From positions 1 to 27,026 of IMG/VR virus record IMGVR_UViG_3300024518_004310: a DNA stretch of 27,026 bases; one strand, written 5' to 3'. The notes beneath the pieces were generated by a model. The model made no database searches and was not told the origin of the DNA. It saw only the letters and a program-made list of their open reading frames with translations. Within the stretch, counting starts at the first letter, position 1. Every line of letters starts with the position of its first letter. Below are positions 8,011 through 26,834 of this stretch, in pieces. This DNA is from a virus. A program made the translations under genes and the position numbers.

Positions 8011-8018
8011 TGATCATT

Positions 8019-8032
8019 TTAATATATTTTAT
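8019..8032 (-). promoter_or_regulatory. A/T leader element upstream of the primase
   Basis: A 14-nt string (minus strand ATAAAATATATTAA) identical to the core of the leader elements before the reductase and RecT genes. It lies between the hairpin at 8061-8090 and the primase ATG, where a promoter or start context for the unit would be expected. Confidence 0.28.
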
Positions 8033-8060
8033 TAATAATATGCATTAGGTTATAAAATAT

Positions 8061-8090
8061 AAACAGACTATTAAAATTAATAGCCTGTTT
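8061..8090 (-). terminator. hairpin after the SSB gene
   Basis: A 13-bp stem with a 4-nt loop. On the minus-strand RNA all pairs form, one of them a G-U wobble; on plus-strand RNA the same position is an A-C mismatch. This shows that the minus-strand transcript is the selected one. The stem is followed by UAUUUUAUAA and lies 24 nt beyond the SSB stop. Confidence 0.7.
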
Positions 8091-8114
8091 ATTATTAGAT
8101 AAGATTAAATAATA

Positions 8115-9185: not shown

Positions 9186-9206
9186 GTAAAATATATTTAT
9201 TTATAT

Positions 9207-9259
9207 ATTGAACAATATTAGTTATGTTAATCTGTAATCTTTTATTACTGTTGTTCAAT
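9207..9259 (-). terminator. possible weak structured 3' end after the 170-residue gene
   Basis: ATTGAACAA (9207-9215) and TTGTTCAAT (9251-9259) form a 9-bp inverted repeat around an inner GTAAT/ATTAC pair. It overlaps the end of the upstream gene and is followed on the minus strand by ATATAAATAAATA. The large loop makes this much weaker than the other hairpins, and I would not use it to split the unit. Confidence 0.25.
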
Positions 9260-9757
9260 AATGACATTTTCGCCCTTATTAAAATCTACTTCAACAACAA
9301 TATTATCATCTTCATCTGAAGATTCAATGTAAGACAATGTAAACGCTCCTGTTATTCCATCAATATAATTAATTTGAAATTCATGCTGTTCTAATTCATT
9401 TATTTCAAATAATTGACATATGTTATTATGTATTTGTTTGGATTTTACACATCTTGTTGGTAAATGTATTTCGTAAGATTTGTATTGTTTATCTGCTTTA
9501 ACAGTTGGCTCACTTACAATACCAATAACAGAATCATATTCAGTTTCATCTGTTGTTGATATATTATACTGTTCAAACATAATAAGTCTATTATTCTTAT
9601 CTTCAACAGTTAGAAAATCAATAGCCTTACGATTTAATTTAATAACATGCCTTTTTCCTTTTACATAAGGAACTGTAGTTAATACAGGTATATCAGGATA
9701 CTTATCTTCTTGTTTAATAATTATTTTTTCTTTTGTTTTTACTCTACTTAAATCCAT
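9245..9757 (-). CDS. hypothetical protein of the replication unit
   Basis: 170 residues, acidic at the C-terminus (ESSDEDDNIVVEVDF), with alternating strands and no membrane segment. The segment VIKLNRKAIDFLTVED resembles KTKLNKKAVEYLTHEE in the SSB gene just downstream, so the two may share a small domain or binding motif. It lies between RecT and SSB with a 34-nt gap to RecT and is presumably co-transcribed. I do not recognise a family. A helper of SSB or RecT is conceivable, on position alone. Confidence 0.7.
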   Translation of the reverse strand: MDLSRVKTKEKIIIKQEDKYPDIPVLTTVPYVKGKRHVIKLNRKAIDFLTVEDKNNRLIMFEQYNISTTDETEYDSVIGIVSEPTVKADKQYKSYEIHLPTRCVKSKQIHNNICQLFEINELEQHEFQINYIDGITGAFTLSYIESSDEDDNIVVEVDFNKGENVIIEQQ

Positions 9758-9791
9758 TATTAAATTTAATTTAAATTATTCAATTGTTAGT

Positions 9792-10511
9792 TTATTTATA
9801 TGTTGGTATAGCATCATTAGTTTTAGGATCAATAATAAATTCAGCTTTACTAAATTCAACTACTTCATGGGTATCATATAATCCACCAATTATATCTGAT
9901 GCAACTCCACGAGCTCCACGAACAACACATCTTGCATACATCATAAAACGAGGTAATTTCTTCCAATTATCTTTTTTATTCCATTGTGCAGATACAGCAT
10001 CACTCCAATAAAATGAATAATCAGATGCTATTGTTTTATTCATATCTTTATAAAATCTATGAAAACGAATAGTTGTTACATATTCAGGATTGCCATTAAC
10101 TTTGACTTGTTCGTCTTTATAAGCAATACTTCCATCAGGATTTTTATAATATTTAAAAGTACCATCTTTATCAGCAGGTAGTATTTTACCATCTTCACCT
10201 CTAAGATAAGCGGGTACTCTTCTCATTACTGGTTCGTAATCTTTTATTAATTCAACACCAATTCCTGCCTTTGCTAAAAGACCCGGTATAACTGATGATT
10301 TAATTGCAACATTACCTTGTATTAAATGCATTGAATTTAATGCAGTTAATGGGTCCATTTCCAATTGATGTCCTTTGTTAATAATAGTTACAACATCTTC
10401 AACTTTTTTAATACCAGAAGGTATTATTTTTCTATCAATCATCCATTGAGCTTTCTGAAACATAGCTTCAGTATCCATCATTACAGACAATTCATTATTT
10501 TTTTTAGCCAT
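9792..10511 (-). CDS. recT: RecT-family single-strand annealing protein
   Basis: 239 residues. The start matches phage RecT proteins: MFQKAQWMIDRKIIPSGI, then VVTIINKGHQLEMDPLTALN and MHLIQGNVAIKSSVIPGLL, equivalent to the family pattern 'G...gm.p..al..iyvi.Gk...sa..m..li'. A later region WKKLPRFMMYARCVVRGAR (184-202) matches the conserved basic helix of the family ('W..yP..Ml..Ra...laR'). RecT proteins coat single strands and pair homologous DNA without ATP. The gene lies next to SSB and helicase in the replication unit. Its exonuclease partner RecE is not visible in this window. Confidence 0.8.
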   Translation of the reverse strand: MAKKNNELSVMMDTEAMFQKAQWMIDRKIIPSGIKKVEDVVTIINKGHQLEMDPLTALNSMHLIQGNVAIKSSVIPGLLAKAGIGVELIKDYEPVMRRVPAYLRGEDGKILPADKDGTFKYYKNPDGSIAYKDEQVKVNGNPEYVTTIRFHRFYKDMNKTIASDYSFYWSDAVSAQWNKKDNWKKLPRFMMYARCVVRGARGVASDIIGGLYDTHEVVEFSKAEFIIDPKTNDAIPTYK

Positions 10512-10527
10512 TAATATATTTTATAAT
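10511..10527 (-). promoter_or_regulatory. A/T leader element at the RecT start
   Basis: The same 17-mer as upstream of the reductase (minus strand ATTATAAAATATATTAA), here ending on the A of the RecT ATG. Being this close to the start codon suggests that at this site it acts as a translation-start context rather than as a promoter. Confidence 0.28.
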
Positions 10528-10541
10528 ATTAATAATATTAG

Positions 10542-11618
10542 TTATCTTTTTACACATACTCCTTTACTCTTAAATTGTTGACAATAATCTTGAAAATCAT
10601 TTAATTCTATTTCTGTAAAATCAAAATATTTTAAGTTGTTTAACATAGGTAATATTTGATCAGGAATACCCTCTCTATTCTTTACAATATGCCAATATAT
10701 GAACTCAATTTCATCACCTTTATCATCTAACCTTATTGGAAAGTTATGATCTGTATAAGCATGTAAATTCAACTTAGCGGGCATATGTGTAAACATAATA
10801 TAATCGCTAAAGAACTCTATACTTGATGATGCCATTAAATCACTAGCAATTGGATAATGCATGTTAGGAACTTGTATTCTTTCTACTCGTTTAATATCTC
10901 TATTCATTTGAGATAATACTATAAAAAATACATTGCCTCCTTCATAGGATATTCTTTTTTTTATATCATTTAATGTTTCCATTAAATTATCAACTTTACT
11001 TTTTTGATTATCACCTTTAATGATTACAGCATGATCAATTTCAACAATTAAATAATCTTCTTTTTTACATAGTTTCTTCCAATAATAATATATTGTATCA
11101 CCTATAACATTGTGATTTTGAGGTTCTTCAACATATAACAAAGGATAGTTAAATAATTTACTATGATACTTCTTAAATATCATTTCCATTTTAGAGGCAG
11201 CCAAAGGATGTTCACTTGAATATAATTCTTGTAATGATATTTTACCTCTATTTGCTATTTCTCTACCTATAGTTTTTTGAGCTAACATTTCAAAATTAAA
11301 ACTTAACCCTATGCTTGTTTTACCTTTAGCAATTAAATTTTCATGCATGCTATTTGATATTCTTTTGGAAAGTGTAGATTTACCTCCACCACTTAATCCA
11401 CTTATAGTTAATATCGTATTAGGTTCAAGCATTAAAGCTTTATTTAACTTAGGATAACAAGTATCAAGAAAAACTATTTCTCCATTGGCGCGCTTACGTA
11501 TATACTCTTTGTTTTGCATTATTGCCTGAGCTTGAGTTAATATACGCGGTAAAAATGAAGGTCTGTCTTTGTCCTCTTTAAGAGAGTTTAATTTTTCTTT
11601 TAGTTCCTTGTTTGTCAT
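10542..11618 (-). CDS. DnaB-like replicative helicase (RecA-fold core)
   Basis: 358 residues, close to just the C-terminal ATPase half of DnaB with little of the N-terminal domain. Walker A is GLSGGGKST (74-82). FNFEM (107-111) stands where DnaB has SLEM. Walker B is LIVEIDH (190-196), with D195-H196 replacing the usual D-Y/H. The sensor motif SQMNR (236-240) is clear. It should unwind the fork and recruit the primase two genes further down. The start at ATG 11618 lies inside the upstream gene (41-nt overlap), so translation is probably coupled and the upstream product may be a partner. Confidence 0.85.
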   Translation of the reverse strand: MTNKELKEKLNSLKEDKDRPSFLPRILTQAQAIMQNKEYIRKRANGEIVFLDTCYPKLNKALMLEPNTILTISGLSGGGKSTLSKRISNSMHENLIAKGKTSIGLSFNFEMLAQKTIGREIANRGKISLQELYSSEHPLAASKMEMIFKKYHSKLFNYPLLYVEEPQNHNVIGDTIYYYWKKLCKKEDYLIVEIDHAVIIKGDNQKSKVDNLMETLNDIKKRISYEGGNVFFIVLSQMNRDIKRVERIQVPNMHYPIASDLMASSSIEFFSDYIMFTHMPAKLNLHAYTDHNFPIRLDDKGDEIEFIYWHIVKNREGIPDQILPMLNNLKYFDFTEIELNDFQDYCQQFKSKGVCVKR

Positions 11619-12150
11619 CTATATTCATTGCTAGTTTATATTCATTAGAACTAATACTGCGTTCAATCATTGCTTCTATATTAGATGTATTATTTAACCA
11701 TGCTTCTAAACCTTGCATGAATTCTAATTTATTATCATTTACAATTGAACCTTTTTTTCTAAACCATACTTCATATTTAATAGCATTAAGAACTGCTGTT
11801 AAATTATATGATTCATCTATTAAAGCTTGAATTCGTTTTTTAATCTTAGTTTTATTACCTGTCCTCAAGTTTCTACCATGAGTATTTAAATGAGCCCCTG
11901 CATTAGTAGGGAATTCAATCCTAATTAAATTATACCATTGATCTAATGAATTAATAGAATTATCTATTATTTCATCAACGGTAACATCTTCAGGAGATAC
12001 ATCATGACTACAAGATATTGTAATGGGGTATGATTCCCCTTTTAAATTTGCTTTTGTATATATTACAAATTTATTATTACCTTGCGGTTCAATGATAGAC
12101 TCTTTTATTAAATTATTGAGGAATTCTTTTGTACAAATTAATTTTGCCAA
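11578..12150 (-). CDS. hypothetical protein, possible helicase accessory factor; TTG start
   Basis: 190 residues. The only upstream-proximal start in frame is TTG at 12150; no in-frame ATG occurs until far downstream, and a TAA stop lies seven codons upstream. An ATG at 12158 is in another frame and ends after six codons. The C-terminal half is helical (KIKKRIQALIDESY, VLNAIKYEVWFRKKG, LEFMQGLEAWLNN). This recalls C-terminal regions of phage replication-initiation or helicase-loader proteins, which often sit directly before dnaB-like genes as here. The 41-nt overlap with the helicase supports a working partnership. The role is inference. Confidence 0.68.
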   Translation of the reverse strand: MAKLICTKEFLNNLIKESIIEPQGNNKFVIYTKANLKGESYPITISCSHDVSPEDVTVDEIIDNSINSLDQWYNLIRIEFPTNAGAHLNTHGRNLRTGNKTKIKKRIQALIDESYNLTAVLNAIKYEVWFRKKGSIVNDNKLEFMQGLEAWLNNTSNIEAMIERSISSNEYKLAMNIDDKQGTKRKIKLS

Positions 12151-12189
12151 TTCGTCATATTTAATTAGTTATATTTTATTAGTTGTTTT

Positions 12190-13014
12190 TTATACCAATT
12201 CTTTTTGTTTGTTTAATTCCCAAGCTCTTGCTAATCTAGTTAGACCAATACCTGCACCAAATCTAGGAAAGAAATCTAAAGATAAGAAGTCTTCTAATTC
12301 TTTTTCTACTCTATCTTTTCCAAACAAATCAAATATTTTCTGACTATAAGCTCCATCCATAATACTATAGAAGAATTTTCTCATTTCATCAGCATCACAA
12401 GAACGTTCTGCTGCTCCAATGGTTTCCTGTCCATATAAGATAGTATCACATTTATTAAATGTACCATCACCATTATATTTCATATTCCAAAACGGTGATG
12501 TTCTTTCTGGAAATTTACTTAGGAATATATTTGTTCCTTTTTCTTTCCATAATTTAAATTCATGTTCATCTTCAATTGTATTTATATTTCCGTATTCTTC
12601 ACAGATAGTATCGTAATCTACATCTACAGCCTCATCAAATCCTAAATAATCACATAATTCTTTATTTAAAGCAATTAAATCTTTAAATGACCCTTTAGAC
12701 TCAAATTCAAACATTGGAAAAATCTTTTCATGTCTACCTGGAATAGGTGCTTCTTCATTTCTATATGAAGTAGATACACAAAATACTCCATCCCATTCAG
12801 GATTCTTTAATAACTCATACTCCAACCACATCTGACCTGTTTGTGGTAATGCCCATACTACTCCGTCATATTCAAAAGTTGAAATAGAAAAAGGGTTTTC
12901 GCAAGCTGCCAATATACTCAGTCTAGATTGTGTTGGAACTTCTACGTAGTTTTTACTCAAAAAAAATTCTCTTAATTTTTGTACCACTTCATGATACGTT
13001 TTTGTTTGTTTCAT
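12190..13014 (-). CDS. free-standing class II aminoacyl-tRNA synthetase core (AsnRS/asparagine synthetase A-like)
   Basis: 274 residues matching only the catalytic core of class II synthetases of the Asp/Asn/Lys type. Motif 2 is SYRNEEAPIPGRHEKIFPMFEFE-like (R85-N-E, then H95-E96, ending about 105) and motif 3 is FGAGIGLTRLARAW (252-265) with the conserved Arg260. YGQETIGAAERS (194-205) provides the acidic substrate loop. There is no N-terminal OB anticodon-binding domain, so charging of a normal tRNA is doubtful. Known relatives with this form make asparagine by adenylating aspartate and adding ammonia. It is first in the helicase-SSB unit, an odd place for amino-acid metabolism. The substrate is unknown. 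Confidence 0.78.
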   Translation of the reverse strand: MKQTKTYHEVVQKLREFFLSKNYVEVPTQSRLSILAACENPFSISTFEYDGVVWALPQTGQMWLEYELLKNPEWDGVFCVSTSYRNEEAPIPGRHEKIFPMFEFESKGSFKDLIALNKELCDYLGFDEAVDVDYDTICEEYGNINTIEDEHEFKLWKEKGTNIFLSKFPERTSPFWNMKYNGDGTFNKCDTILYGQETIGAAERSCDADEMRKFFYSIMDGAYSQKIFDLFGKDRVEKELEDFLSLDFFPRFGAGIGLTRLARAWELNKQKELV

Positions 13015-13062
13015 TTTAATTTATAAAATTTTTAATTTTAAAGTATATTAGGTATATTAAAA

Positions 13063-13094
13063 TGGTAAGGATTGTATAAAACATATCCTTACCA
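13063..13094 (-). terminator. hairpin after the DNA polymerase gene
   Basis: Perfect 10-bp stem TGGTAAGGAT / ATCCTTACCA with a 12-nt loop. It lies 6 nt past the polymerase stop and is followed on the minus strand by TTTTAATATA, a short U tract. It separates the polymerase unit from the helicase-SSB unit. Confidence 0.68.
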
Positions 13095-13100
13095 ATATAG

Positions 13101-15044
13101 TTAAAATAAACTATAATTCAAAGTAATTATCGAATTAATTAATTTATCTGCTTCTCTTATATAATAAGTAAAATCTACATTGTATTTCTCTTGTTTTTCA
13201 TATTTATTGAACACTGTAACTTTATAACCTCTACCTGATTGTGGATGAGCTTCTATTTGAGATTCACTTCCATTATTATATTTCTTAATAAAGTGAAATC
13301 CTTTGTTAGAAACGTAATAACGATTTGTTTTTTGTAATTGTTTTTCAAATATTTTTCCACCGTTAAGTCCTCTAATAATCATCTTAGGTTTACCCTTTAA
13401 ACCACCAATAGTTTTCTTAGCTAAACAGTAATCAAAAATACCATGATTTTTAATTTTACCGTTATAATAATCTCCACAATTAAAATGATTTAAGATAGTA
13501 TCTTTAACAGGTATTCCATCAGTAAAATATAAACTAACTGCTATTGAAACTATACGTTTAGAATGGTCTTTATGATATTGAAGTTCTCCTTTCATTTCTT
13601 TATCAATTTGAAAAGCTCCTTTATATTTTACTTTACCATTAGTATAAATAGCCATATAATTATTTACATCCCTTGATACTAATTTAGAATAATGAGAATC
13701 TTCTAATTCTAATTTAGTTAATTCTTCCCACCATTTTACAATCTCATGCATTTCTTTTAATTTACTCTTATGAATTCTTATCACAATACCATCAGTATTA
13801 GCTTGTAATACAGTTGATATATTAGCAAATTCTTCAGCTAACATTGTTAATAGTAATTGCCCATTAATTGTAATAGACATTGTAAATTTTGGATCGTAAA
13901 GATAACTGTATTGACTATTAGATTTACCGTAAGTACCATTTAAAGCTAATTTTAATCCTGCATCTGTTATTTTATCTCCACTTTTCTTAGCGTCTTTTCT
14001 TGTATTATAAATTTCTTCATAAATCTCACAAAATACTTCTCCTAAATGTTTAGGATATATTTTATTTTTTATTGCAAGATTTGGGTAGTAGCTGGCAACG
14101 TCCCAATCAATTAATTCATATTCATCATCTGCTTCATATACTCCTGGTTTACAAGCGGCATGTAACCCGCCAGTACCATATACATATTCAAGATTTTTAT
14201 GATTAACCTTAAGATTATCAAAAACACCTTTAGTTTCTGTAATAACTTTGTTTTTAAGAAAAGTAAGAAGTTTATTAAATTTCTTAGATTCAAATTTAAC
14301 ATAATCAAATATACACTCACTTAATTTAATTTCATCTCTATGTGTTCTTTGATTGCGTAATTGATTCCATGTTATACCTCTTTTCTTACAAATAATCTTA
14401 GCAAATATTTCACTTCCTATTTCTGGGTCGTTAGCATTTAATAATTTTAAATTATAATTTTTAGATATTTTCTTTCTTAGTTCTATTTTACCTTGACAAT
14501 CTAAATATAATTGATAAGTAGCTAATACATCATTAAAATTATATTCCATCATACCTTCAACTTCTTCTTCTGTTAATTCATGGTCATGTTCAAAAGGTAA
14601 GTCTTGAATATTATTCCATCTTAATGCAAATTCACACCATTTTAAACCACATCTTTTTGCTATATTATCAAAATGATTAATCTTATATAAATCAAGTTGT
14701 GGTATTCTAGTATTTTTATCAGATATATTACTATATTCTGCTGCTATAACTTTATTTGCAAATCCTTTTATTATACGTGCTTTTTCTTCACCCGATTTAT
14801 CTTTAAACAAATGAGGTTTAACTAATATTCTATGAATGACAGGATAGTCAAATCCAATATTATTGAATCCGACCATCCCTTTAATTTCATCACTTGTTGT
14901 AAATTTTACAAATTCATCTAGTTCATCTTTCCATTTACAAACAACAAAATCACGTCTTTCTAAGGTATCTACATTATAATAAATACAAGAAAATACATTA
15001 CCAAAAGTTTCAATATCATATACCCAAACTTTTCTATTGTGCAC
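13101..15044 (-). CDS. family B DNA polymerase with 3'-5' exonuclease domain
   Basis: 647 residues from a GTG start (15044) that overlaps the preceding stop; the next in-frame ATG would remove exonuclease motif I, so GTG is the start. Exonuclease motifs: VYDIETFG (D10, E12), GFNNIGFDYP (D66) and YNFNDVLATY (Y168, D172). Polymerase motif A is IDWDVASYYP (D315), motif B is KLALNGTYG (K365, N369, Y372) and motif C is QANTDGIVIR (D418). Motif C normally reads DTDS; here the first Asp is Asn. YGTGGLHAA (289-297) matches the pre-motif-A signature of phage PolB enzymes. It is short for a protein-primed type, and no TPR insertions are obvious, though I cannot exclude them. It is the replicative polymerase. 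Confidence 0.9.
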   Translation of the reverse strand: MHNRKVWVYDIETFGNVFSCIYYNVDTLERRDFVVCKWKDELDEFVKFTTSDEIKGMVGFNNIGFDYPVIHRILVKPHLFKDKSGEEKARIIKGFANKVIAAEYSNISDKNTRIPQLDLYKINHFDNIAKRCGLKWCEFALRWNNIQDLPFEHDHELTEEEVEGMMEYNFNDVLATYQLYLDCQGKIELRKKISKNYNLKLLNANDPEIGSEIFAKIICKKRGITWNQLRNQRTHRDEIKLSECIFDYVKFESKKFNKLLTFLKNKVITETKGVFDNLKVNHKNLEYVYGTGGLHAACKPGVYEADDEYELIDWDVASYYPNLAIKNKIYPKHLGEVFCEIYEEIYNTRKDAKKSGDKITDAGLKLALNGTYGKSNSQYSYLYDPKFTMSITINGQLLLTMLAEEFANISTVLQANTDGIVIRIHKSKLKEMHEIVKWWEELTKLELEDSHYSKLVSRDVNNYMAIYTNGKVKYKGAFQIDKEMKGELQYHKDHSKRIVSIAVSLYFTDGIPVKDTILNHFNCGDYYNGKIKNHGIFDYCLAKKTIGGLKGKPKMIIRGLNGGKIFEKQLQKTNRYYVSNKGFHFIKKYNNGSESQIEAHPQSGRGYKVTVFNKYEKQEKYNVDFTYYIREADKLINSIITLNYSLF

Positions 15045-15456
15045 TACGTGTTCTTTTTACACCATCTGCACCTGTAATGCTAATTACATTTCTAACATCT
15101 ACACTTTTCCAATTGTTATCATCATCTTGGAACAATAAATAACCTGATTCATTACGATAATCATCAGCTCTTTTGTAATATTCTACTTTTAAACCACCCT
15201 TATGATGATCTAAAGCATGAGCAATAACTTTTTTATGTTTCCCTTTAGAAAAATCACTTACCGACATTTTATTAAGTTGCTTCATTGCTTTAAGTGTTAA
15301 TTTACGCTCATCATCAACACTAGGTATTTTATTATACTCAATTTTAATATAATCACCTACATTTAATTGTTCAACAGTGTTGAATAATTCTTTTTGAGTT
15401 ACACCATACTTAGTTGTGTGAACATTAGTAAAATTTACTTTAGTCTTTTTTTTCAT
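15034..15456 (-). CDS. hypothetical basic protein before the polymerase
   Basis: 140 residues, Lys-rich, with the segments QLNVGDYIKIEYNK (29-42) and KGGLKVEYYKRADD. The C-terminal part ends WKSVDVRNVISITGADG, a strand-rich pattern like a small SH3/OB-type barrel. It overlaps the polymerase start by 11 nt and the preceding gene by 17 nt, so the three are translated together. A nucleic-acid-binding helper of the polymerase is plausible from charge and position, but I recognise no family. Confidence 0.7.
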   Translation of the reverse strand: MKKKTKVNFTNVHTTKYGVTQKELFNTVEQLNVGDYIKIEYNKIPSVDDERKLTLKAMKQLNKMSVSDFSKGKHKKVIAHALDHHKGGLKVEYYKRADDYRNESGYLLFQDDDNNWKSVDVRNVISITGADGVKRTRSAQ

Positions 15457-16231
15457 CTTTTTTTTTATTTAATTTAGTTAATATAAGGTCCTCCATTTCA
15501 TTATCATTAATGAAAGTGGATTCATTTTTTTCTTTTTGTTTCTTTTTGTTGTACTTCTTAATATCCAATATTCTATCATATTGTCTAGATGACATTCCAT
15601 CATAGGTAGTATGTTCTACTAATTCAGATCTTCGCATACTTTCTGTTGGATTAACACATTTTAATATTCTTATTTTACGTGTTGTAGTCCAATCTACTTT
15701 CCAACCTGTTTGGTCTTCAATAAATTTAATCTTCCATTTTTCATAAGAAAATATACTATGTTGCCATTTTTGTCTATCTTGTTGAATAAATCTAATTATA
15801 TAATAATCATCAAATTCTCTTAATAATGTACCTATTTTTTGTATTGAATCGTTATGTTTTTTACGATATTTTTTAAGTACTTTTTTCATTCTAAGAAAAT
15901 CATCTACATTATCTTTTCTCTGTTTAATTAATTCATTGTATAAACGTCTACAATATCTTGTTGGTTTTTTAGAAGTTACACCTTTAAAGAAAATAATAAT
16001 TCTATTATATTTATTTATTATGATATTATCTTTTTCATTATACTCTTTTTTATCTTTAGGTTCCACTTTTTCATTGTGTAAATAAAATGAATCTCCGTCA
16101 CTTACTTTTTCAAGTAAAATAGCTTTACCTTCATATTTTATTTCTTCCTGATAATTAGTATAAATATCTATAATAGAATTCTTTTTTAATTTAATATTTA
16201 TTTTTACTTCTTTTCCTTCATTTTTCTCCAT
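15440..16231 (-). CDS. hypothetical highly basic protein
   Basis: 263 residues, very rich in Lys, Arg and Glu, with both ends strongly charged (KKDEKKD at the C-terminus). Residues 13-85 are strand-rich (SIIDIYTNYQ, GKAILLEKVSDGDSFYL). Residues 86-160 are a basic helical region (RRLYNELIKQRKDN, RMKKVLKKYRKKHN). The later segment TGWKVDWTTTRKIRILK may be a helix-turn-helix-like or nucleic-acid-binding surface. It overlaps the small-domain gene upstream by 28 nt and the next gene by 17 nt. No family is recognised; DNA binding is inference from charge and from lying in the polymerase unit. Confidence 0.7.
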   Translation of the reverse strand: MEKNEGKEVKINIKLKKNSIIDIYTNYQEEIKYEGKAILLEKVSDGDSFYLHNEKVEPKDKKEYNEKDNIIINKYNRIIIFFKGVTSKKPTRYCRRLYNELIKQRKDNVDDFLRMKKVLKKYRKKHNDSIQKIGTLLREFDDYYIIRFIQQDRQKWQHSIFSYEKWKIKFIEDQTGWKVDWTTTRKIRILKCVNPTESMRRSELVEHTTYDGMSSRQYDRILDIKKYNKKKQKEKNESTFINDNEMEDLILTKLNKKKDEKKD

Positions 16232-16701
16232 GTTTTTTTATCGTCCATGTTTGAAAAGAAAAGCATTGATGAATTACATTGTTTTAACCATTTATTTATT
16301 AGAACTGAACCCCATTTTTTATAAAAATTAATATCTAATAAATGTTGTCCTAATACACGTGCAGTCTTTTTATTAATATTGTTAAATACTTTTTCATTTA
16401 TCATTGCACATATTAATGCATCTAATGCACTATCACTCATAGTTTTAATTACATTATTATAACTACCCATATTACCTTTAACATGAAGAGGATATTTAAT
16501 GACTATACTGTTGGCAAGACACTCTTGTCCTTTTACAGTTAGCATTAATTCATCTTTAGTGTTAGGTTTATATTGGATTAAATATAATTTCATTAAACTA
16601 TCAACTTGGTTATTCCAATTCTCATGTAATTCATCATCTCTACCTGTTCTAATTAATAAAAGACAGGCTTGTTGCAAATCTGTTAATTTATAATTATTCA
16701 T
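16204..16701 (-). CDS. hypothetical protein with winged-helix-like N-terminus
   Basis: 165 residues. The first 60 look like a winged helix: LTDLQQACLLLIRTG, a recognition-like helix with SLMKLYLIQY, then a wing DELMLTVKGQECL resembling the 'LTekGrelL' wing of MarR/PadR-type domains. The remainder is helical and Asn/Lys-rich. The ATG overlaps the exonuclease stop as ATGA. It may bind DNA or RNA, perhaps as a regulator, but the match is by pattern only. It is co-transcribed with the exonuclease and polymerase. Confidence 0.68.
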   Translation of the reverse strand: MNNYKLTDLQQACLLLIRTGRDDELHENWNNQVDSLMKLYLIQYKPNTKDELMLTVKGQECLANSIVIKYPLHVKGNMGSYNNVIKTMSDSALDALICAMINEKVFNNINKKTARVLGQHLLDINFYKKWGSVLINKWLKQCNSSMLFFSNMDDKKTWRKMKEKK

Positions 16702-17426
16702 TTTATTAGTTTAGTTAATTCCGGTGATAATATTAATCTATTATTATTAGTCATCCACTTTAGATATCTATTTTCATTTTTGATTAATTCATCAATAGTT
16801 TTACCTGTATGTTTACCGGTTTTCATTTTAAAATTAGGATTTGAAATAGTAGAACCTCTTAAGTCTTCATAAGTTAATATATAATCCCTCCAAGGTAAAC
16901 CAAATTTCTCCATTTCATCAAGTATTTCAACACATGCTAAAACATCGTATTTTGCCTTGTGAGCATCTAATGTCTTACCTGTTATAAGTTTATATACATT
17001 CTCTAAAGAACGGCTAGGAATCTTATTTAAATCCTCTTCTTCTATTACATTCTTTATAATATAGAATACATCAACAAATTTAATATTTTTTATATCAAAA
17101 TTGACATTATTACGCTGATATAATGATATCAATAATGGAACATCATATCTACATATATTATATCCACCAACATATTCACTTAAAGAAAAAGTTTCTTTAA
17201 CAGATGTTGATATATCTTTAAATGTTGGCTTATCCTTAATATGTTTTTTATATATACCATGTACTTCAGAAGCTTCTTTTGGTATATCTATTTCTGGATT
17301 AATTAAAGTGTCTATTTCACGTTTTAATTTATAATTAATGGCATATATTGACACTAATCCAATAGTATTAATATTTAACCCTGTAGTTTCTAAATCAAAC
17401 CATGTTATATTATGTTTCTTTTTCAT
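16698..17426 (-). CDS. DnaQ-like 3'-5' exonuclease with ExoX C-terminal domain
   Basis: 242 residues of the DEDDh type. Motif I is WFDLETTG (D11, E13), motif II is GGYNICRYDVPLL (D95) and motif III is DAHKAKYDVLACVEIL (H156, D161). The conserved EVHGI (54-58) supports the DnaQ/epsilon group. Residues 204-226 (GKHTGKTIDEL then YLKWM) match the small C-terminal domain of exodeoxyribonuclease X-like enzymes. It would trim 3' ends of single-stranded or mismatched DNA. The polymerase here has its own exonuclease, so this enzyme more likely serves repair, recombination or degradation. It lies directly after the preceding gene without a gap and overlaps the next as ATGA. Confidence 0.87.
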   Translation of the reverse strand: MKKKHNITWFDLETTGLNINTIGLVSIYAINYKLKREIDTLINPEIDIPKEASEVHGIYKKHIKDKPTFKDISTSVKETFSLSEYVGGYNICRYDVPLLISLYQRNNVNFDIKNIKFVDVFYIIKNVIEEEDLNKIPSRSLENVYKLITGKTLDAHKAKYDVLACVEILDEMEKFGLPWRDYILTYEDLRGSTISNPNFKMKTGKHTGKTIDELIKNENRYLKWMTNNNRLILSPELTKLIK

Positions 17427-18104
17427 TTATCTTATATTAAATTCTTTATTATTATAATTTTTTGCTGGTATTTTAACCATAATGTTATTATTATCTAAAT
17501 ATAAATCAGCATTGCCAAACCCACTAATAAAACTATCACATACTTCTAAGTTAGTAATATTTTTATTAAAAGCTTCATCTTGAATATCATATTTAAATAA
17601 TTCATTTCTTACATACTTGTAAGCAGTTGCTAAACTTTTAAATCTATAAATTCTACTTGTCATATCAGGATCAGTACTTCCTTGAAAACTATAACATACT
17701 GTATCCCCTATTTCAGTACCATCATCTTTTATATACTTACAGTTTAAAAATTTAACTTCATTGTCTTCATTTGCAATTACATGACCTTGATGTCCATTTA
17801 AAAATGTTTTATCCTCTTTTAATAATAATCTCAACTCATAAACACAATGTTGTTTTTTTCTAAATGTTTGCAATTGTGCTCTACTTGTTGTTTGTTCTTT
17901 TTTTAAAGATAATACATGCGTTGTATTACGTTTATCCCATATTAACTTTAGCTCTGTATTAAAATCAGGTTTAGCTCCAGGCTTTAGTGAACCTGGAACT
18001 ATCTGTAAATAATTTTCAAGAGTTAACCTAACATTAGCTTCATCGTAACCTTCAGCATAATATCTTTTTTCATTGTGTTGATACCTATAAATTTTCGGTC
18101 TCAT
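17427..18104 (-). CDS. hypothetical protein opening the polymerase unit
   Basis: 225 residues with mixed strands and helices and no recognised family. Visible segments are KIYRYQHNEKRYYAEGYDEANV, where residues change between aromatic and charged, LRLLLKEDKTFL, and YRFKSLATAYKYVRNELFKY. There is no signal peptide or membrane helix. The ATG is the first after hairpin 18131-18145, so it is probably the first gene of the unit. It is followed at once by the exonuclease gene. The function is unknown. Confidence 0.7.
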   Translation of the reverse strand: MRPKIYRYQHNEKRYYAEGYDEANVRLTLENYLQIVPGSLKPGAKPDFNTELKLIWDKRNTTHVLSLKKEQTTSRAQLQTFRKKQHCVYELRLLLKEDKTFLNGHQGHVIANEDNEVKFLNCKYIKDDGTEIGDTVCYSFQGSTDPDMTSRIYRFKSLATAYKYVRNELFKYDIQDEAFNKNITNLEVCDSFISGFGNADLYLDNNNIMVKIPAKNYNNKEFNIR

Positions 18105-20545: not shown

Positions 20546-20575
20546 ATAATGGGTAGAAATTAATCTACCCATTAT
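20546..20575 (-). terminator. hairpin after the MoxR gene
   Basis: Perfect 12-bp stem ATAATGGGTAGA / TCTACCCATTAT with a 6-nt loop. It lies 22 nt past the stop of the AAA+ ATPase gene and is followed on the minus strand by TTTAAATAAAATAAA. Its downstream arm ends 15 nt before the next start codon, so it could also influence translation of that gene. Confidence 0.68.
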
Positions 20576-20597: not shown

Positions 20598-21830
20598 TTA
20601 CATTCTATTTAATAACAATTTACCGATTTCAGGATCAGCCATGATTCTTTTTAATTTTCCTTGAATTAATTCTTGAGCCATATTTAATCTAATATCATTA
20701 GGAATTGATTTGATATTAATATAAGCTTTAAGATTTTTCTCTTGTAATTTAGTTAATTTACCATTTAAGGTATCAGTACAATAAAAGATGATACGTGTAC
20801 TTAATACTGATAATACATCAACTCTTGGTGCAGCACCTTTAGAAAACTTTTCAATAAATCCTTTTTCAATTGTTTTTTCAAAGTCTTTAGCTTCAAGTAT
20901 TTCTTTAGGGCTTTTCAGTGTAGTAAGATTATCATTTATAAATGTTGTAAATACAACTGCAGCATTAGGATCAAGACTACCATTACTAAGAACCATTACC
21001 ATATCTATATTTTCTTTTAGATTTTTAATGTTTCTAATGTTATTGGCAAAATGTTCAATTGATCTTGGTGTAGTTAATTCCCCATCTCTTATTAATTCTG
21101 GATGAGATAATACAAAATTTACTACTCTTTCATCAATATTATTAGACAATGCCCATCTAGCCCAAGCTTTTTCTTCAAATTCCATTGAAATATGAGTCAT
21201 ACGAGTCATTTGAGCTCCATCTAATTCTGTTACTTGATAATCTCCACCTCCTGGATTAGCTGTTAACATAATACTCCATCCTTTAGGTAATTTCCAAGTA
21301 GCAAGTCCACCATTTTGCAATAAATCCATAATACCATTAATGATACGTTTACCTGCTCTATTGAAATCATCAATTACAAATATTCCTTTTTCAGGAGATC
21401 CTAAATCTACATTTGGAACCCATTGTGGAGCAGCTGTAATTGTTTGACTTGGACGTGAATTATCTTTAGACCAACCTGCATTAATATATGAATCAACATT
21501 ATCTTTATCAACTAACTTACTTTGATCATCTTTAATTACCCAAATACCTGTACTTGGCATACCTAATAAATCACCCATTTCCTCAAACTGCGCAGGAGAT
21601 ATTTTTTCAAATCCAATTCCTAAGTTTTCAGCAAGTTGTTCTGGTAGTGCTGTTTTACCAATACCATGTTTACCCCAAATACAAATGGGAACTTTTTTAC
21701 CTTGATCATTTCTTTCAACTGTTGTTAAGTTAGAATTATAAACATGTTCTAAAAAGAACATAATTCTATCTGCAGTTAATATTGTTCCGTGGTACTCGTA
21801 AGCGATTGATTTACCTTGTTTTTTTGACAT
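20598..21830 (-). CDS. MoxR-type AAA+ ATPase
   Basis: 410 residues. Walker A is GKHGIGKT (53-60), Walker B is GIFVIDDFNRAG (149-160, D154-D155), and the sensor-1 region is MLTANP (188-193). NRAG (157-160) and QMTRMTHISM (207-216, R210) match the MoxR/AAA_5 layout, including NPxxx and R-finger-like positions. MoxR ATPases act as metal-insertion or remodelling chaperones and typically work with a vWA protein encoded beside them. That partner is the gene just upstream here (32-nt gap). The C-terminal half is helical with no recognised domain. It is the last gene of a unit with its own hairpin. Confidence 0.85.
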   Translation of the reverse strand: MSKKQGKSIAYEYHGTILTADRIMFFLEHVYNSNLTTVERNDQGKKVPICIWGKHGIGKTALPEQLAENLGIGFEKISPAQFEEMGDLLGMPSTGIWVIKDDQSKLVDKDNVDSYINAGWSKDNSRPSQTITAAPQWVPNVDLGSPEKGIFVIDDFNRAGKRIINGIMDLLQNGGLATWKLPKGWSIMLTANPGGGDYQVTELDGAQMTRMTHISMEFEEKAWARWALSNNIDERVVNFVLSHPELIRDGELTTPRSIEHFANNIRNIKNLKENIDMVMVLSNGSLDPNAAVVFTTFINDNLTTLKSPKEILEAKDFEKTIEKGFIEKFSKGAAPRVDVLSVLSTRIIFYCTDTLNGKLTKLQEKNLKAYINIKSIPNDIRLNMAQELIQGKLKRIMADPEIGKLLLNRM

Positions 21831-21862
21831 TTTTTATTATTTTTATTGTTATTAAATTGTTA

Positions 21863-23326
21863 TTAAAAATTCATCTTAACCTTCATTCCTTGAAAATCAC
21901 TCATATCTTCAGCTTCTACTCCTTGATTCTTACTAATTATCCACATTAAAGGACATTTACATTTTGGTGGAGGCGGAGCTTCTCCATCAGTAAAATAAAT
22001 TACACAATCAGGATTATACTCCGTATTTGCGTAAATAATTGGTTCATCAAAGCTTGTACCACCTCTTCCTGATATTCTATCAGGTGGTGTACCAGTATAA
22101 TCCCATATATTACCAATGTTGTAATCACATTCTACTATTCTAATTTCGGCATCAGTTTTATATATGTGATGAATTTCACTAAAGAATTCAGCCAATGAAG
22201 CATTATCCACAGAACCTGAAGTATCAATTGCAACCATTATTTTTGATTCTTTTTTGATTTTATGTCCTGGAAAAGTACCATATCTTTTACTTCTTCTTTT
22301 CAATGTCGGTATAAGATACGTTTTTTCTCCATTTGCTGCAAATTTTCTTAATTGTCTTTTCCAATTTACACTTGGCTTTAATTTAGCAATTAATTCATCA
22401 ATATAGTCTAATAGTTCTCCTGGTAATTTACCTCTCCAACTATTTTTACAAGTACTTCTATCACATTTCTTAACAGTTTCTTGTACAGTATTGTCAACCC
22501 ACTTCTCAACAAATTCTTTTTTACCTTGCTTCAATTTGGAAAGTTTATCCCACGTTGAATGCATTTTTTGATTGTTTTCATTTTGTAAGAATTTAGCAAG
22601 ATTTTTTTGAGATTTATTCAATTTATCCCAATTTGGATTATTGTTTCCTTGTTGGTTATTTTGTTTTTCTTCCTGTTCTTCTTGTCCTTTCTGTTCTTCT
22701 TGACTCTGTTGGTCTTGTTGGCTGTCTCCTTCTGAACCTTGTTGCTGTCCTTCCGAACCTGCACCTGAACCACTATTAGACTGTTCTTGTTGCTTAGAAC
22801 CTTCTTTTAAAATATCTCTAATTTTTTGAGATTCTTTAATTAATTTATTATAATAATATTCAGATGTTTGGTGACAATCTTTTCCTCCTGCTTGAATATC
22901 AGTAAAGAAATCAGGAAAGTTTTTTAATAAACAAATTTCATCTTTCATTGGTAGTTGTTCTTCTTTAATACATTGATTAACTACTAAATCTACTGCAATA
23001 TTTGCTATTTGTTTATTACTAAATTTATTATATTGAAAAATGTGTTTAAATAAGATATGTAATATTTCATGCTTAACAATACCATATTTATAATTTTCTG
23101 CCTCTATTACATTACTAACATTTAATTTTTCATTCCAAAATGTTTTATTAACTAATAGAGATAATACATTGTTAGATGTTAAACTAATTGCTGCTGTTTG
23201 AACAGGATGTTCTCCGTCTACACATTCTCTAATCAAGTTAGAGAAAAAGTGACCGTAGAACGGTTCTTTTAAAATAAGTTGAATGGATGTTCTATCAACA
23301 TCCCTCAGTACTTCTTGTTGTGTCAT
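21863..23326 (-). CDS. HExxH metallopeptidase-like + vWA protein (DUF2201 type)
   Basis: 487 residues in three parts. Residues 1-170 resemble the DUF2201 N-terminal putative metallopeptidase domain, with the zinc motif HEILH at 86-90 (H86, E87, H90). Residues 178-230 are a low-complexity linker of Gln, Glu, Ser and Gly. Residues 360-480 form a von Willebrand A domain with a complete MIDAS: DTSGS (D368, S370, S372), T424 in GRGGTSF and D447 in FTDG. Such proteins pair with MoxR ATPases, which lies next here. The ATG is the only Met before residue 127, so the start is firm; it overlaps the small ORF upstream by 32 nt. The target is unknown. Four Cys in the 289-293 and 456-458 regions could bind metal. 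Confidence 0.85.
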   Translation of the reverse strand: MTQQEVLRDVDRTSIQLILKEPFYGHFFSNLIRECVDGEHPVQTAAISLTSNNVLSLLVNKTFWNEKLNVSNVIEAENYKYGIVKHEILHILFKHIFQYNKFSNKQIANIAVDLVVNQCIKEEQLPMKDEICLLKNFPDFFTDIQAGGKDCHQTSEYYYNKLIKESQKIRDILKEGSKQQEQSNSGSGAGSEGQQQGSEGDSQQDQQSQEEQKGQEEQEEKQNNQQGNNNPNWDKLNKSQKNLAKFLQNENNQKMHSTWDKLSKLKQGKKEFVEKWVDNTVQETVKKCDRSTCKNSWRGKLPGELLDYIDELIAKLKPSVNWKRQLRKFAANGEKTYLIPTLKRRSKRYGTFPGHKIKKESKIMVAIDTSGSVDNASLAEFFSEIHHIYKTDAEIRIVECDYNIGNIWDYTGTPPDRISGRGGTSFDEPIIYANTEYNPDCVIYFTDGEAPPPPKCKCPLMWIISKNQGVEAEDMSDFQGMKVKMNF

Positions 23327-23492
23327 AATTTTTTATTTTTATATTAAGTTTTATTTTTTCATTAATTTTTAATATTCTAATATACTTAGAATTAAACTTT
23401 ATTAATGGCTCTATTCTATTTGATGCTGTGTTATACTGTAAATCTTTATTTTTATCACATAAATAAAATGGAGGTAGGAAAAATTGAGTCAT
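23295..23492 (-). CDS. possible small protein between LRR and vWA genes
   Basis: 65 residues, with its ATG overlapping the leucine-rich-repeat gene's stop as ATGA and its end overlapping the vWA gene by 32 nt. This tight fit favours a real gene, since otherwise about 160 nt would be non-coding in a very compact genome. The sequence is basic, with many Lys and Ile (KINEKIKLNIKIKNY), and has one N-terminal Cys and a C-terminal Cys. There is no signal peptide. No homologue is recognised. It might instead be a leader region with a chance frame, so confidence is moderate. Confidence 0.45.
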   Translation of the reverse strand: MTQFFLPPFYLCDKNKDLQYNTASNRIEPLIKFNSKYIRILKINEKIKLNIKIKNYDTTRSTEGC

Positions 23493-24049
23493 ACTATTTT
23501 TTTATTATTTAATATTATTCTTTTTTTTTTACTTCCTTGATTAGGGTCATATGTTACAAAACATTCTGGTAATTCATTTGAAAATTTTAATATTTCTTCT
23601 TCTGAAATATTATTTCCATCTATATGTAAATAGTCAAGTTTTTTTAATTTAAATAAAACTTTTGGGAACTTTGTAAAATTATTAGAACATATATTTAATT
23701 TACGTAAAGATTGTAAATTTTCAAATGAATCCGGTAATTCTGTTAATTCATTGTAAGGAATAGATAAATTTTCTAAATTTTTTAAAATTCCAATATTATT
23801 AGGTAATTTTTTAATTTTAACACCACCTAAACTGAGATGTTTTTTTGAAGTCAAATGTTTTATTTCTTCTTTTATAAAATGTTTCATTCCATAACGAAAT
23901 CTTATATTTGAAGTTTTTTCTCCAATAAAATCAATAAGTTCTTTAAATTCTTTCATTGCAATTTTTTCAGTATCTTTACTAATAGTAAATGCTAATTCAA
24001 TATTAACCGGATTACATGAAAATAATAGTTTTTTTATTTTTTCTTCCAT
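23489..24049 (-). CDS. leucine-rich-repeat protein
   Basis: 186 residues. About three to four leucine-rich repeats run from residue 70 to 150: HLSLGGVKIKKLP, LENLSIPYNELTELPDSF, LRKLNICSNNFTKFP and LDYLHIDGNNISEEEI. Each has the LxxLxxxxNxLxxLP core. The N-terminus (LLFSCNPVNIELAFTISK, 8-25) contains the LL-NxELA helical motif found also in two other proteins here. LRRs bind proteins, so a target-recognition role next to the vWA/MoxR pair is attractive but inferred. A run of ten A residues (minus strand, 23521-23530) near the 3' end could slip and alter the last 14 residues. Confidence 0.8.
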   Translation of the reverse strand: MEEKIKKLLFSCNPVNIELAFTISKDTEKIAMKEFKELIDFIGEKTSNIRFRYGMKHFIKEEIKHLTSKKHLSLGGVKIKKLPNNIGILKNLENLSIPYNELTELPDSFENLQSLRKLNICSNNFTKFPKVLFKLKKLDYLHIDGNNISEEEILKFSNELPECFVTYDPNQGSKKKRIILNNKKIV

Positions 24050-24069: not shown

Positions 24070-24097
24070 AAATAGCTGATATTTCTATCAGCTATTT
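24070..24097 (-). terminator. strong hairpin-U terminator after the glucosaminidase gene
   Basis: Perfect 12-bp stem AAATAGCTGATA / TATCAGCTATTT with a 4-nt loop, directly followed on the minus strand by seven T in a row counting into the arm end (TTTTTTTG). It lies 3 nt after the glucosaminidase stop. This is the clearest rho-independent terminator of the window. Confidence 0.85.
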
Positions 24098-24100: not shown

Positions 24101-24793
24101 TTACAATTTATCTAAGTTTAAATCTTTAATATGTTTAATTCTATTATAAACACCTCGGTCTGAGCTCCAATAACCACCTCTTTTATATGCTTTTATCCAA
24201 TTTTCATAGTTATCAGGTTTTGTTATTTTATTCATGTAACGATCTTGCAATAAAACTTTAGCCCAACCATCAATACCTTTCAATAACAAGTTATATGTAC
24301 GAAAGAAACATAATTCATCACCATGATCATCTTTTGCTTTAAATGAACCTTTTTCAGTTCTAGATTTAATACCACCTAAATTATTATGATTTTTAAATAA
24401 TCTAGATTTACCATATCCTGTTTCTTCAATCCAAAAAGAAATTGAAATAAAATTAGGAATACCGTATTTTAATTCTAAATAATCCCATACAGGTTTCATT
24501 TTTACAATAGCACTGTAATTTTTTAATTGATAATTTCTTAATTTCTTAGATTTTAATACAGGTAAATAATTAAATATTATACTTGTATCAAAATTAGATG
24601 TTATAGTTCTTAAATTTTTAATATCAATTTTATTGATTGAATCAACTAATTGTTTTATTTTCAAATCTTTATTTTCAGCAGTTACAACTATAGTTGGTAA
24701 CGTTACTTCAAATATTGTATTTGATTTTAAGTTAGTACTATTCAATATTAAAATGTTTAAGAATAATATAATAACTAATAAAAAACTTCTCAT
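24101..24793 (-). CDS. secreted GH73-type glucosaminidase (endolysin-like)
   Basis: 230 residues. An N-terminal hydrophobic stretch after Arg2 (FLLVIILFLNILIL, 4-17) is a signal peptide or anchor, so the enzyme probably leaves the cytoplasm by Sec. The lysozyme-like glucosaminidase core spans about 100-225: YGIPNFISISFWIEETGYGKS with catalytic-type Glu124, NNLGGIKS (137-144) and FRTYNLLLKGIDGWAKVL (164-181). Family members cut GlcNAc-beta-1,4 bonds of peptidoglycan. LPTIVVTA (32-39), just after the signal, resembles the TonB-box-like 'EVVVTA' string of Bacteroidota exported proteins. It is preceded by a Bacteroidota-type promoter and followed by a strong terminator, so it may be its own transcript. 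Confidence 0.85.
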   Translation of the reverse strand: MRSFLLVIILFLNILILNSTNLKSNTIFEVTLPTIVVTAENKDLKIKQLVDSINKIDIKNLRTITSNFDTSIIFNYLPVLKSKKLRNYQLKNYSAIVKMKPVWDYLELKYGIPNFISISFWIEETGYGKSRLFKNHNNLGGIKSRTEKGSFKAKDDHGDELCFFRTYNLLLKGIDGWAKVLLQDRYMNKITKPDNYENWIKAYKRGGYWSSDRGVYNRIKHIKDLNLDKL

Positions 24794-24853: not shown

Positions 24854-25912
24854 TTAGTTGTCTGATTCAATGTTTGTTATATGATACACTATATCTCCAT
24901 TTAAAGTTGTTAAACTTTCTACTGATATGCCAGATAGTTTGAAATCATCAAGATTAATTTTAATATTATTTTGTTTACAATCACGTAACATCGTTTTTAT
25001 ACCATTAGTGTTATATGTACCACAAACATTATAACTATTCCATCTACCTACACATTTTAATAATAAAGGATTACGACCAAATATCTTTTGATAAATTGCT
25101 TTTAAAGCATGTTCTTTTATTTTTCCACCATAATAACAACATATTAATTTTGATAATATAGCTTCAACATCCAATTTTTTAATCATTTCAATTGCTAATT
25201 CCCATGAATCTTTAGATTCTAATAAATCTTGTATTGCTTTCCAATTATAATCAACACTATCAACTCTAACTTTTTTAGCAACTTCCCAATCATAAACCAC
25301 TTGTTGTAAATCAATTTCATTAATAAAATTTTTTGATTTATCTATCAATGCTTCAACATGGTCTTCATTTACTTTAGAGTGACCGATATGTGCTACAACT
25401 TTACATTTATATGTTTCTTCATATTTATCATACATTTTATCATATTTAGATAAATAATAATAATCATTATTATCATCCTTTATATGTACATTAAATACAA
25501 ATCTTTTAAATGAATTATAATCGTAGTATCTTGGTTGAGGACAATTAGCATAAACCTTGTTTTCATCATAATTATAATTATATGTTCCAATTGGAATTTC
25601 AAATCTTTTAGTAAAATTAATTGTATTACCCGACCAACTTGAAAAACTTAATGTATGTTCTTTCATTACTAAAATATCTGCTTCTTTTGGGTTGAATACT
25701 TGTTTTATATCTTTATCTTTAAGATATTTTCTCAAAGGAAGTTTTTTTATTTTACAATTAGGGAAAATATAAATTTTATCATTTTGTTTTAAGTCATCTG
25801 GTGATAATACATCTTTATTAACACCATATCTTATTTTTTTATCTTTTACCCGTTGTAAATTTATTGTTTTTAAATATTCAAGGTCTTCAGTTTTTTTAAT
25901 TACTACATTCAT
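24854..25912 (-). CDS. hypothetical protein, BRCT-like fragment plus helical module
   Basis: 352 residues. Residues 45-83 (KIYIFPNCKIKKLPLRKYL, then VFNPKEADILVM) have the strand-helix-strand 'ADilV' pattern seen in the two BRCT-like proteins at the left end of the window. Residues 230-245 (LLESKDSWELAIEMIK) carry the same helical motif as the 262-residue BRCT-like and the LRR proteins. The middle is rich in Tyr, Asp and Asn. Cys residues at 257-261 and later (CCYYGG, VGRWNSYNVC) are not a clear metal site. I recall similar architecture in phages of Bacteroidota but no function. It starts 10 nt after the upstream gene's stop. Confidence 0.75.
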   Translation of the reverse strand: MNVVIKKTEDLEYLKTINLQRVKDKKIRYGVNKDVLSPDDLKQNDKIYIFPNCKIKKLPLRKYLKDKDIKQVFNPKEADILVMKEHTLSFSSWSGNTINFTKRFEIPIGTYNYNYDENKVYANCPQPRYYDYNSFKRFVFNVHIKDDNNDYYYLSKYDKMYDKYEETYKCKVVAHIGHSKVNEDHVEALIDKSKNFINEIDLQQVVYDWEVAKKVRVDSVDYNWKAIQDLLESKDSWELAIEMIKKLDVEAILSKLICCYYGGKIKEHALKAIYQKIFGRNPLLLKCVGRWNSYNVCGTYNTNGIKTMLRDCKQNNIKINLDDFKLSGISVESLTTLNGDIVYHITNIESDN

Positions 25913-25922: not shown

Positions 25923-26834
25923 TTATTCTATTAAATTAAATCCTAACTTAATTAAACCGTGTTGTAAATCTTCAATATCTTCTGATTTAATTAATTCGTT
26001 AAATAATATTTCTGGTTTTTTTAATTTTATTGCTAATGCTTCTATAACTTCAAGATATAAATCATTATAAAAATTTTTATTTTCAATTTTATTTCCTGTT
26101 GATAATATTGCATTAACTGTTGATACTAAATCTGTATCATTATTTTTATCATTTTTTAATAATTGAGTTAAGTAGCCATTTATTGCTCCCAAATAACCTG
26201 AATCATCATATACATAATTAGATAGCTCATCTGTTGCTAATTCTTCATCAGAAAAAGAGGAATCACGCTGTTTAATAATATTCATACATTTATGAGATTG
26301 AAAGTCATTAATCAAATTATACATGTAAGAGATATTATCATCAATCATAAGTATATTTTTATCTGTATTAAATAATAATAAGAAGTCTCTAAAATAATTT
26401 GTTGTTCTATTATTAGATTCTATACATACATTATTATTAAAGGTATATTGTCCACTTTTATTTAATGTTAATTTATCTGTATCAAAATCTAAACTATAAG
26501 AATCATAACCTTCAACATCAATTTCTAATATATCTACTAATGTATCATTTAAAGTAACATAAAAACTATCTTTTGCTTCATTACGTAATGTAATATCTTC
26601 AATAATATTTAAATTCAACAAAGATGCTACTGTTTTAATTGTCATTAATTTACGTAATCTAAGACTATCAGGCTTTTTATCATAATCTTCAATTTTTAAT
26701 TGCACATAATATAAATCTTCATTTTCAAAATCAAATATATCAATTAAAGGTTTAGAATTAATATCTACTTTTTCAGAATTATGATATAATATACCATCGT
26801 TATAAGTTATTTCACTTATTTTAATTTTACTCAT
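25923..26834 (-). CDS. hypothetical acidic phage protein
   Basis: 303 residues, acidic overall, rich in Asp, Asn and Leu. The N-terminal half is strand-rich (KISEITYNDGILYHN, LYYVQLKIEDYDKKP) and the C-terminal third is helical (YLEVIEALAIKLKKPEILFNELI, EDIEDLQHGLIKLGFN). There is no signal peptide, membrane helix or recognised family. It is separated from the next gene by 10 nt and from the truncated gene upstream by 32 nt. The function is unknown. Confidence 0.72.
   Translation of the reverse strand: MSKIKISEITYNDGILYHNSEKVDINSKPLIDIFDFENEDLYYVQLKIEDYDKKPDSLRLRKLMTIKTVASLLNLNIIEDITLRNEAKDSFYVTLNDTLVDILEIDVEGYDSYSLDFDTDKLTLNKSGQYTFNNNVCIESNNRTTNYFRDFLLLFNTDKNILMIDDNISYMYNLINDFQSHKCMNIIKQRDSSFSDEELATDELSNYVYDDSGYLGAINGYLTQLLKNDKNNDTDLVSTVNAILSTGNKIENKNFYNDLYLEVIEALAIKLKKPEILFNELIKSEDIEDLQHGLIKLGFNLIE

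Follow-up and report, generated by a model that had tools for sequence, protein, structure and literature searches.

The window analysed here, the whole 27,026 bases of IMG/VR virus record IMGVR_UViG_3300024518_004310 (25% GC, classed linear, all genes accepted as real on the - strand), carries a gene pair encoding a MoxR/Midasin-class AAA+ ATPase and a VWA protein with an N-terminal putative metallopeptidase domain, preceded by a leucine-rich repeat (LRR) gene and a small open reading frame (ORF). The pair itself is real and of a known kind, as MoxR and VWA-metallopeptidase pairs have been published from phages. What is new here is a distinct chromosomal-type 'DD' ATPase subfamily, named for its Walker B motif, and the recurring LRR(-BRCT) flanks of its members in chromosomes. 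Judging from sequence and gene context, we read the pair as a replication-linked remodeller or clipper that may act on a protein involved in replicating, repairing or transcribing DNA; the LRR protein would be an optional adaptor. We give this reading a probability of about 0.45, somewhat short of an even chance.

A sequence-only reading had taken the ATPase, HExxH/VWA, LRR and small-ORF genes as one unit, with the LRR gene and the small ORF preceding the pair between two hairpins. All four ORFs, both hairpins and the motifs were present where it had placed them on the - strand. The LRR gene and small ORF lie on the same strand as the pair and 5' of it, and the whole is bracketed by two strong terminator hairpins:

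24070-24097, - strand: intrinsic terminator after the glucosaminidase/endolysin gene, 5' border of the unit (free energy dG -14.3, z -6.1; also picked up by a terminator search)
23489-24049, - strand: LRR protein of 186 amino acids, accessory (LRR_8 and LRR_14 above the Pfam cut-offs)
23295-23492, - strand: orphan ORF of 65 amino acids (ATGA shared with the LRR stop; overlaps the VWA start by 32 nucleotides)
21863-23326, - strand: VWA protein of 487 amino acids with a complete metal-ion-dependent adhesion site (MIDAS) and an N-terminal DUF2201_N putative metallopeptidase domain, HEILH ... D113 (PF13203 and PF09967, conserved ligands, AlphaFold)
20598-21830, - strand: MoxR/Midasin-class AAA+ ATPase of 410 amino acids, chromosomal-type subfamily, Walker B 'DDFN' (AAA_5, phrog_1297, AlphaFold/Foldseek, Midasin profile match, tree)
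20546-20575, - strand: terminator-like hairpin after the ATPase gene, 3' border of the unit (dG -16.9, z -5.6)

The ATPase belongs to the AAA_5/MoxR-Midasin class in the broad sense only. Its sequence passed the AAA_5 model narrowly (22.4 bits against a cut-off of 22), and the AAA_3 model (PF07726, the MoxR core model) gave 15.9 bits, below its cut-off of 27, with no match at E<=1e-3; its PHROG is phrog_1297, labelled 'ATPase'. The AlphaFold model had a predicted local distance difference test score (pLDDT) of 92.8. The 12 best Foldseek matches of this model were NorQ/NorQD chains, with CbbQ within the top 20, and a profile search found Midasin to be the closest solved sequence (E 3e-19). Walker A, the sensor-1 Asn, the Arg finger and the sensor-2 Arg are intact. 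Walker B, however, is D154-D155 and not the canonical DE, so that the earlier description of the catalytic sites as intact is correct for Walker A, the HEILH motif and the complete MIDAS and has to be amended for Walker B. DD occurred in 48 of 48 members of the window ATPase clade, whereas all 10 N4/jumbo-type homologues had E at the second acidic place. In a quickly built tree, whose N4/jumbo group has long branches, the ATPases of the window and of two viral contigs, L001 and L002, grouped together (support 99) within the chromosomal set, and this set stood apart from the ten N4/jumbo-type homologues with a Shimodaira-Hasegawa-like approximate likelihood ratio (SH-aLRT) support of 100. By identity, chromosomal proteins of Bacteroidota and Gammaproteobacteria reach 40-50% with the window ATPase, compared to ~20% for the N4/jumbo type.

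The VWA protein matched the DUF2201 VWA-like domain in its C-terminal part (PF09967, 58.5 bits; cut-off 26.4) and the DUF2201_N putative metallopeptidase domain in its N-terminal part (PF13203, 36.9 bits; cut-off 23.2). Its AlphaFold model (pLDDT 85.9) had a low-confidence linker at ~190-225. A Foldseek search of the whole model against the PDB gave no match at E<=0.001; the best sub-threshold matches were mostly VWA or integrin I-type domains, with no metallopeptidases among them. Across 14 phage homologues (~19-60% identity), E87, H90, H95 and D113 and the MIDAS residues D368, S370, S372, T424 and D447 were unvarying, and H86 was lost once. H86, H90, H95, D113, D368, S370, S372 and D447 were invariant in 46 chromosomal-type subfamily members, with T424 varying once, and from this conservation D113 is probably the third metal ligand. 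Natural HQxxH variants, with Gln for the catalytic Glu and every metal ligand kept, were seen in the VWA genes of four chromosomal loci (L036, L066, L068 and L082), which suggests that these members are non-hydrolytic. The PHROG of the window protein, phrog_1314, carries the label 'HNH endonuclease', yet no HNH model matched; the other phage members compared have the same metal-site and MIDAS residues. This label has spread through many phage annotations and misfits the DUF2201 domains of the window protein. Sequence, predicted fold and conservation together support well the view that the pair is probably a chaperone-like machine, as the sequence-only reading had put it.

The pair lies close to replication genes in the window and in several of its viral relatives. 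The neighbouring features are:

7045-18104, - strand: replication module 3' of the pair, with primase, DnaB-like helicase, DNA polymerase and exonuclease
24101-24793: glucosaminidase/endolysin, 5' of the unit, where two function-unassigned genes also lie

Exonuclease, DNA polymerase, DnaB-like helicase, primase, ribonucleotide reductase and ligase genes were found 3' of the unit. A single-sequence VWA query against viral contigs found nothing, and alignments that spanned every phage member proved too diverse for scanning; closer alignments were used instead. In L001 (ATPase 60% identical), L002 (53%), L003 (42%) and L135 (VWA protein 46%), the VWA gene is followed by the ATPase gene and then by common replication-module genes, and both the LRR gene and the small ORF are absent beside the pair. 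The suggestion of a four-gene system conserved among phages therefore has to be abandoned. The VWA alignment retrieved 36 viral loci. In 34 of them the ATPase gene was close to the VWA gene, and the remaining two end at the sequence edge; window-type queries found no LRR in these 36 loci. In more than 20 viral contigs that form a second, distant group, the pair stands amid Sak4, primase, RusA, exonuclease and DNA polymerase genes. In the N4-type phage YH6, the pair adjoins helicase and DNA polymerase genes, and in AR9 an annotated early promoter lies directly 5' of the pair. In N4, gp24/gp25 belong to the middle class (PMC4193335), and they are part of the gene core of N4-like phages/Schitoviridae (PMC7650795). 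The N4 gp24 (AAA+ ATPase)/gp25 pair shares PHROGs 1297/1314 with the window pair; the ATPases are ~19% identical, the N4 type has E where the window has D at the second Walker B place, and YH6 has no LRR annotated beside the pair, unlike the window.

On the replication-linked reading, the ATPase would form a MoxR/Midasin-type AAA+ ring working with the VWA protein. The VWA MIDAS would dock a specific protein, and the ring would pull or remodel it, which is the direction of action we infer; clipping of the docked protein may fall to the metal site in the N-terminal domain. Such a machine would be a replication-phase factor with its target in the DNA replication, repair or transcription apparatus of host or phage. 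The window LRR protein would be an accessory specificity or adaptor subunit, like the neighbours of the chromosomal pairs, and would not be obligatory.

The putative adaptor role draws on the chromosomal relatives. One scan found 80 chromosomal loci, with ATPase identities of 39-47% over the best segment, mainly in Saprospiraceae and other Bacteroidota and also in Vibrio, Photobacterium, Ferrimonas, Microbulbifer and Cocleimonas. Clustering of the neighbours gave three recurring families, namely the ATPase, the VWA protein before it, and an LRR protein of ~840 amino acids (median). Pfam detected LRR in eight of eight representative LRR companions and BRCT over the cut-off in two. Among the 51 loci with at least 3 kb on each side, 25 had both VWA and LRR neighbours, 8 VWA only, 2 LRR only and 16 neither. 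A VWA neighbour was thus present in 33 and an LRR(-BRCT) neighbour in 27, and the two adjacencies were associated (Fisher p 1.7e-5, a statistic that ignores kinship of the loci). A neighbourhood survey had been proposed to see if the LRR gene travels with the pair; it often does so in these chromosomal relatives (LRR neighbour in 27/51), and not in the 17 pair-bearing viral contigs searched whole, L135 and six contigs of 88-117 kb included, where no LRR_8 (PF13855) was found. In Vibrio neptunius, two of the genome's three LRR_8 ORFs lie beside the pair. In L068, the LRR gene is directly 5' of the VWA gene in the same direction, giving the LRR-VWA-ATPase order of the window, and in other loci it is 3' of the ATPase gene or divergent. 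Loci L032-L111 (Bacteroidota, Vibrio, Photobacterium, Ferrimonas) share with the window the VWA-to-ATPase order and the LRR neighbour, and have the closest relatives of its ATPase outside the phage group. However, the chromosomal companion is usually a larger LRR protein, with BRCT in several, whereas the window LRR has 186 amino acids and no BRCT in a Pfam scan. The literature searched holds no description of chromosomal LRR-BRCT/VWA/MoxR loci. The recurrence of LRR and LRR-BRCT genes beside chromosomal pairs supports the view that such proteins and pairs of this kind go together. A further locus, L004 (2166-10335), has in one row a WGR protein, a repetitive protein of an unassigned family, a 1,367-amino-acid LRR protein whose BRCT match is below the cut-off, a MoxR ATPase and a VWA gene; it may be a bacterial fragment instead of a phage.

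The window LRR protein consists of a ~64-amino-acid helical N-terminus and about four 23-residue repeats, and both parts match many stand-alone Bacteroidota LRR proteins. This is what would be expected if the LRR gene, with the 65-amino-acid ORF, were a passenger that landed between terminator and pair and had no functional tie to it, a possibility that we take seriously while leaning slightly the other way. The absence of the LRR from L001, L002, L003, L135 and the other pair-bearing contigs searched also fits a passenger. In both L001 and L002, the endolysin(-like) gene and the VWA gene have a terminator-like hairpin directly between them, so the window LRR gene and small ORF fill the slot between terminator and pair. 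In the phage LR756500, an LRR gene is two genes from the pair, but several further LRR genes are dispersed over the genome; its linkage was set aside as weak support for an LRR tie, and the dispersal agrees with a passenger. On the other side, the window LRR gene lies inside the pair's own transcription unit, at the position of chromosomal LRR genes such as that of L068, and the chromosomal LRR/VWA adjacency is associated, subject to the kinship caveat given above. For the 65-amino-acid ORF, no homologue was found in any of the loci compared, and its frame would be open by chance in only ~0.1% of shuffles; its coding status is uncertain.

MoxR-vWA pairs also occur in conflict systems (PMC7159879), and the sequence-only reading had drawn this link. 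Host takeover or counter-defence, in which the machine would disassemble or cleave a host defence or replication protein picked by the LRR, would be in line with the rare and patchy chromosomal version (3 of 296 Bacteroidota genomes at E<=1e-30) and with the variable LRR neighbour, as target choice would predict. The VMAP/iSTAND/FtsH ternary systems (PMC7159879) likewise have a MoxR-vWA couple plus a further component; the window differs in that its vWA is fused to the DUF2201 metallopeptidase. No VMAP, iSTAND, FtsH or beta-propeller third component was recognised beside the pair, with no VMAP-specific profile run. PADLOC gave no match for the window proteins tested, and membership in a defence system is not supported. 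Distant phages, moreover, keep the pair in replication modules, unlike most counter-defence genes. We consider this role unlikely, and the phage gene context points to replication.

A helical domain was found to link the phage neighbourhood with the chromosomal companions:

24854-25912, - strand: conserved neighbour, near the pair also in L001, L002 and L135; its C-terminal helical domain resembles the post-BRCT domain of the chromosomal LRR-BRCT companions
289-1077, - strand: second phage protein with the same helical motif, LLTSKDDVNVKLAVTLI (weaker match, hhalign E 7.7e-5 and 4.4e-4)

The protein at 24854-25912 matched the post-BRCT region with 51.3 bits (hhalign E 7.6e-7), compared to 25.0 for the best unrelated decoy family, and its helical part alone gave E 4.6e-8. 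In the second viral group, a protein of 141-146 amino acids directly 5' of the VWA gene showed a weaker match (E 4.4e-4, 26.9 bits; decoys <=20.9 bits, with the phage family itself as the top decoy). The N-terminus of the window LRR protein matched weakly, with E 0.009 alone and 1.3e-4 as a family (26.4 bits against 23.0 for the best decoy), and its relationship to the helical domain is only suggestive. The motif LLxSxDxxNxxLAxxMI was seen in 289-1077 and 24854-25912, where it matches the helical domain that follows the BRCT in the chromosomal companions, and, by eye only, in 25923-26834. By eye, the N-terminal half of 24854-25912 had suggested a BRCT-like fold, but hhalign gave no significant match. 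We take these matches to reflect a helical module that turns up repeatedly near the pair. One tentative extension is that an undescribed Bacteroidota/Gammaproteobacteria system of LRR(-BRCT), DUF2201 VWA-metallopeptidase and 'DD' MoxR proteins acts on DNA-bound complexes. The phage group would then have taken a split form of it into the replication module, comprising the pair, the helical-domain protein 24854-25912 and, here, a separate LRR adaptor. We find this quite conceivable, with the odds somewhat against it.

The replication reading is favoured by the position of the pair in the window group and the second viral group, by the YH6 adjacency, the N4 middle class and the AR9 early promoter, and the BRCT of chromosomal companions and the WGR protein in L004 also point to DNA. 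Several observations weigh against it. Gene neighbourhood is not equal to function. The VWA gene does not adjoin the ATPase gene in L005, L007 and L008, and no VWA gene was found on the contigs of L006 and L009. Walker B 'DD' might reduce ATPase activity. E87 is replaced by Gln in 4 of the 46 aligned homologues, all four chromosomal, so the putative peptidase activity is not certain family-wide; since the metal ligands and MIDAS are near-invariant while E87 varies, metal and MIDAS binding may be more important than hydrolysis in some members at least. The window LRR is not specifically nearest to the pair-linked chromosomal LRRs, as other LRRs of those genomes match equally well or better. Finally, S-TIM5 and XaC1 have the pair among or next to virion genes, and RM378 has it near a head-protein gene, which makes one replication role for the whole family unlikely.

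These last placements agree with a virion-assembly chaperone or protease, with the pair folding and processing a structural protein. MoxR and vWA-metallopeptidase pairs have been published from group 2.2 jumbo phages (Iyer et al. 2021, PMC7824862), and this role was proposed for them by analogy with an archaeal virus tail-assembly MoxR-vWA system (PMC7824862). The window pair is similar in having a MoxR AAA+ protein plus a vWA cochaperone fused to an N-terminal metallopeptidase domain. It differs in its ATPase, which is outside the ten-homologue N4/jumbo clade (~20%), and in Walker B DD, the replication module and the LRR gene before the pair. In the 462-kb phage LR756500 (LR756500.1, 180972-201793; L019, L154), the VWA protein, an LRR protein, the next ORF and another LRR protein all start with MKYIxxYxxFxxE, and these N-termini resemble T4-type capsid-targeting leaders of internal proteins; if the leaders are real, the proteins bearing them would be packaged and injected. 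This resemblance, too, would favour virion assembly. However, the window group, the second viral group and YH6 have the pair within or next to the replication module, the N4 genes are of the middle class (PMC4193335), AR9 has an early promoter, and no virion gene was recognised among the scanned window proteins (PHROGs and other profile scans). A virion-assembly role for the window pair is thus improbable.

As a MoxR/dynein-class AAA+ protein with a VWA/MIDAS partner, the window pair also resembles RavA-ViaA, NorQ-NorD, CbbQ-CbbO and Midasin (Rea1). Substrates are known for these, and the NorQ structure has been solved in complex with the NorD VWA domain. To our knowledge, their cofactors have no DUF2201 metallopeptidase domain.

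Some other features of the loci were also recorded. The N-terminal stretch of the window DNA ligase (3688-4806) is WGR-like by eye. In L135, a protein with a radical-SAM-like cysteine motif, seen by eye (4632-5510), lies directly 5' of the VWA gene. The Bacteroidota promoter motif TAnnTTTG showed no excess.

Many lytic phages, N4-like ones included, have a MoxR-VWA-metallopeptidase pair among their core genes, and the literature searched assigns these pairs no substrate or step. The analysis connects the pair with the replication module in two phage groups that are distant from each other, and with a set of chromosomal genes that has LRR and BRCT partners. Two testable hypotheses arise, namely that the substrates may be DNA-associated and that the LRR/BRCT proteins may serve as adaptors.

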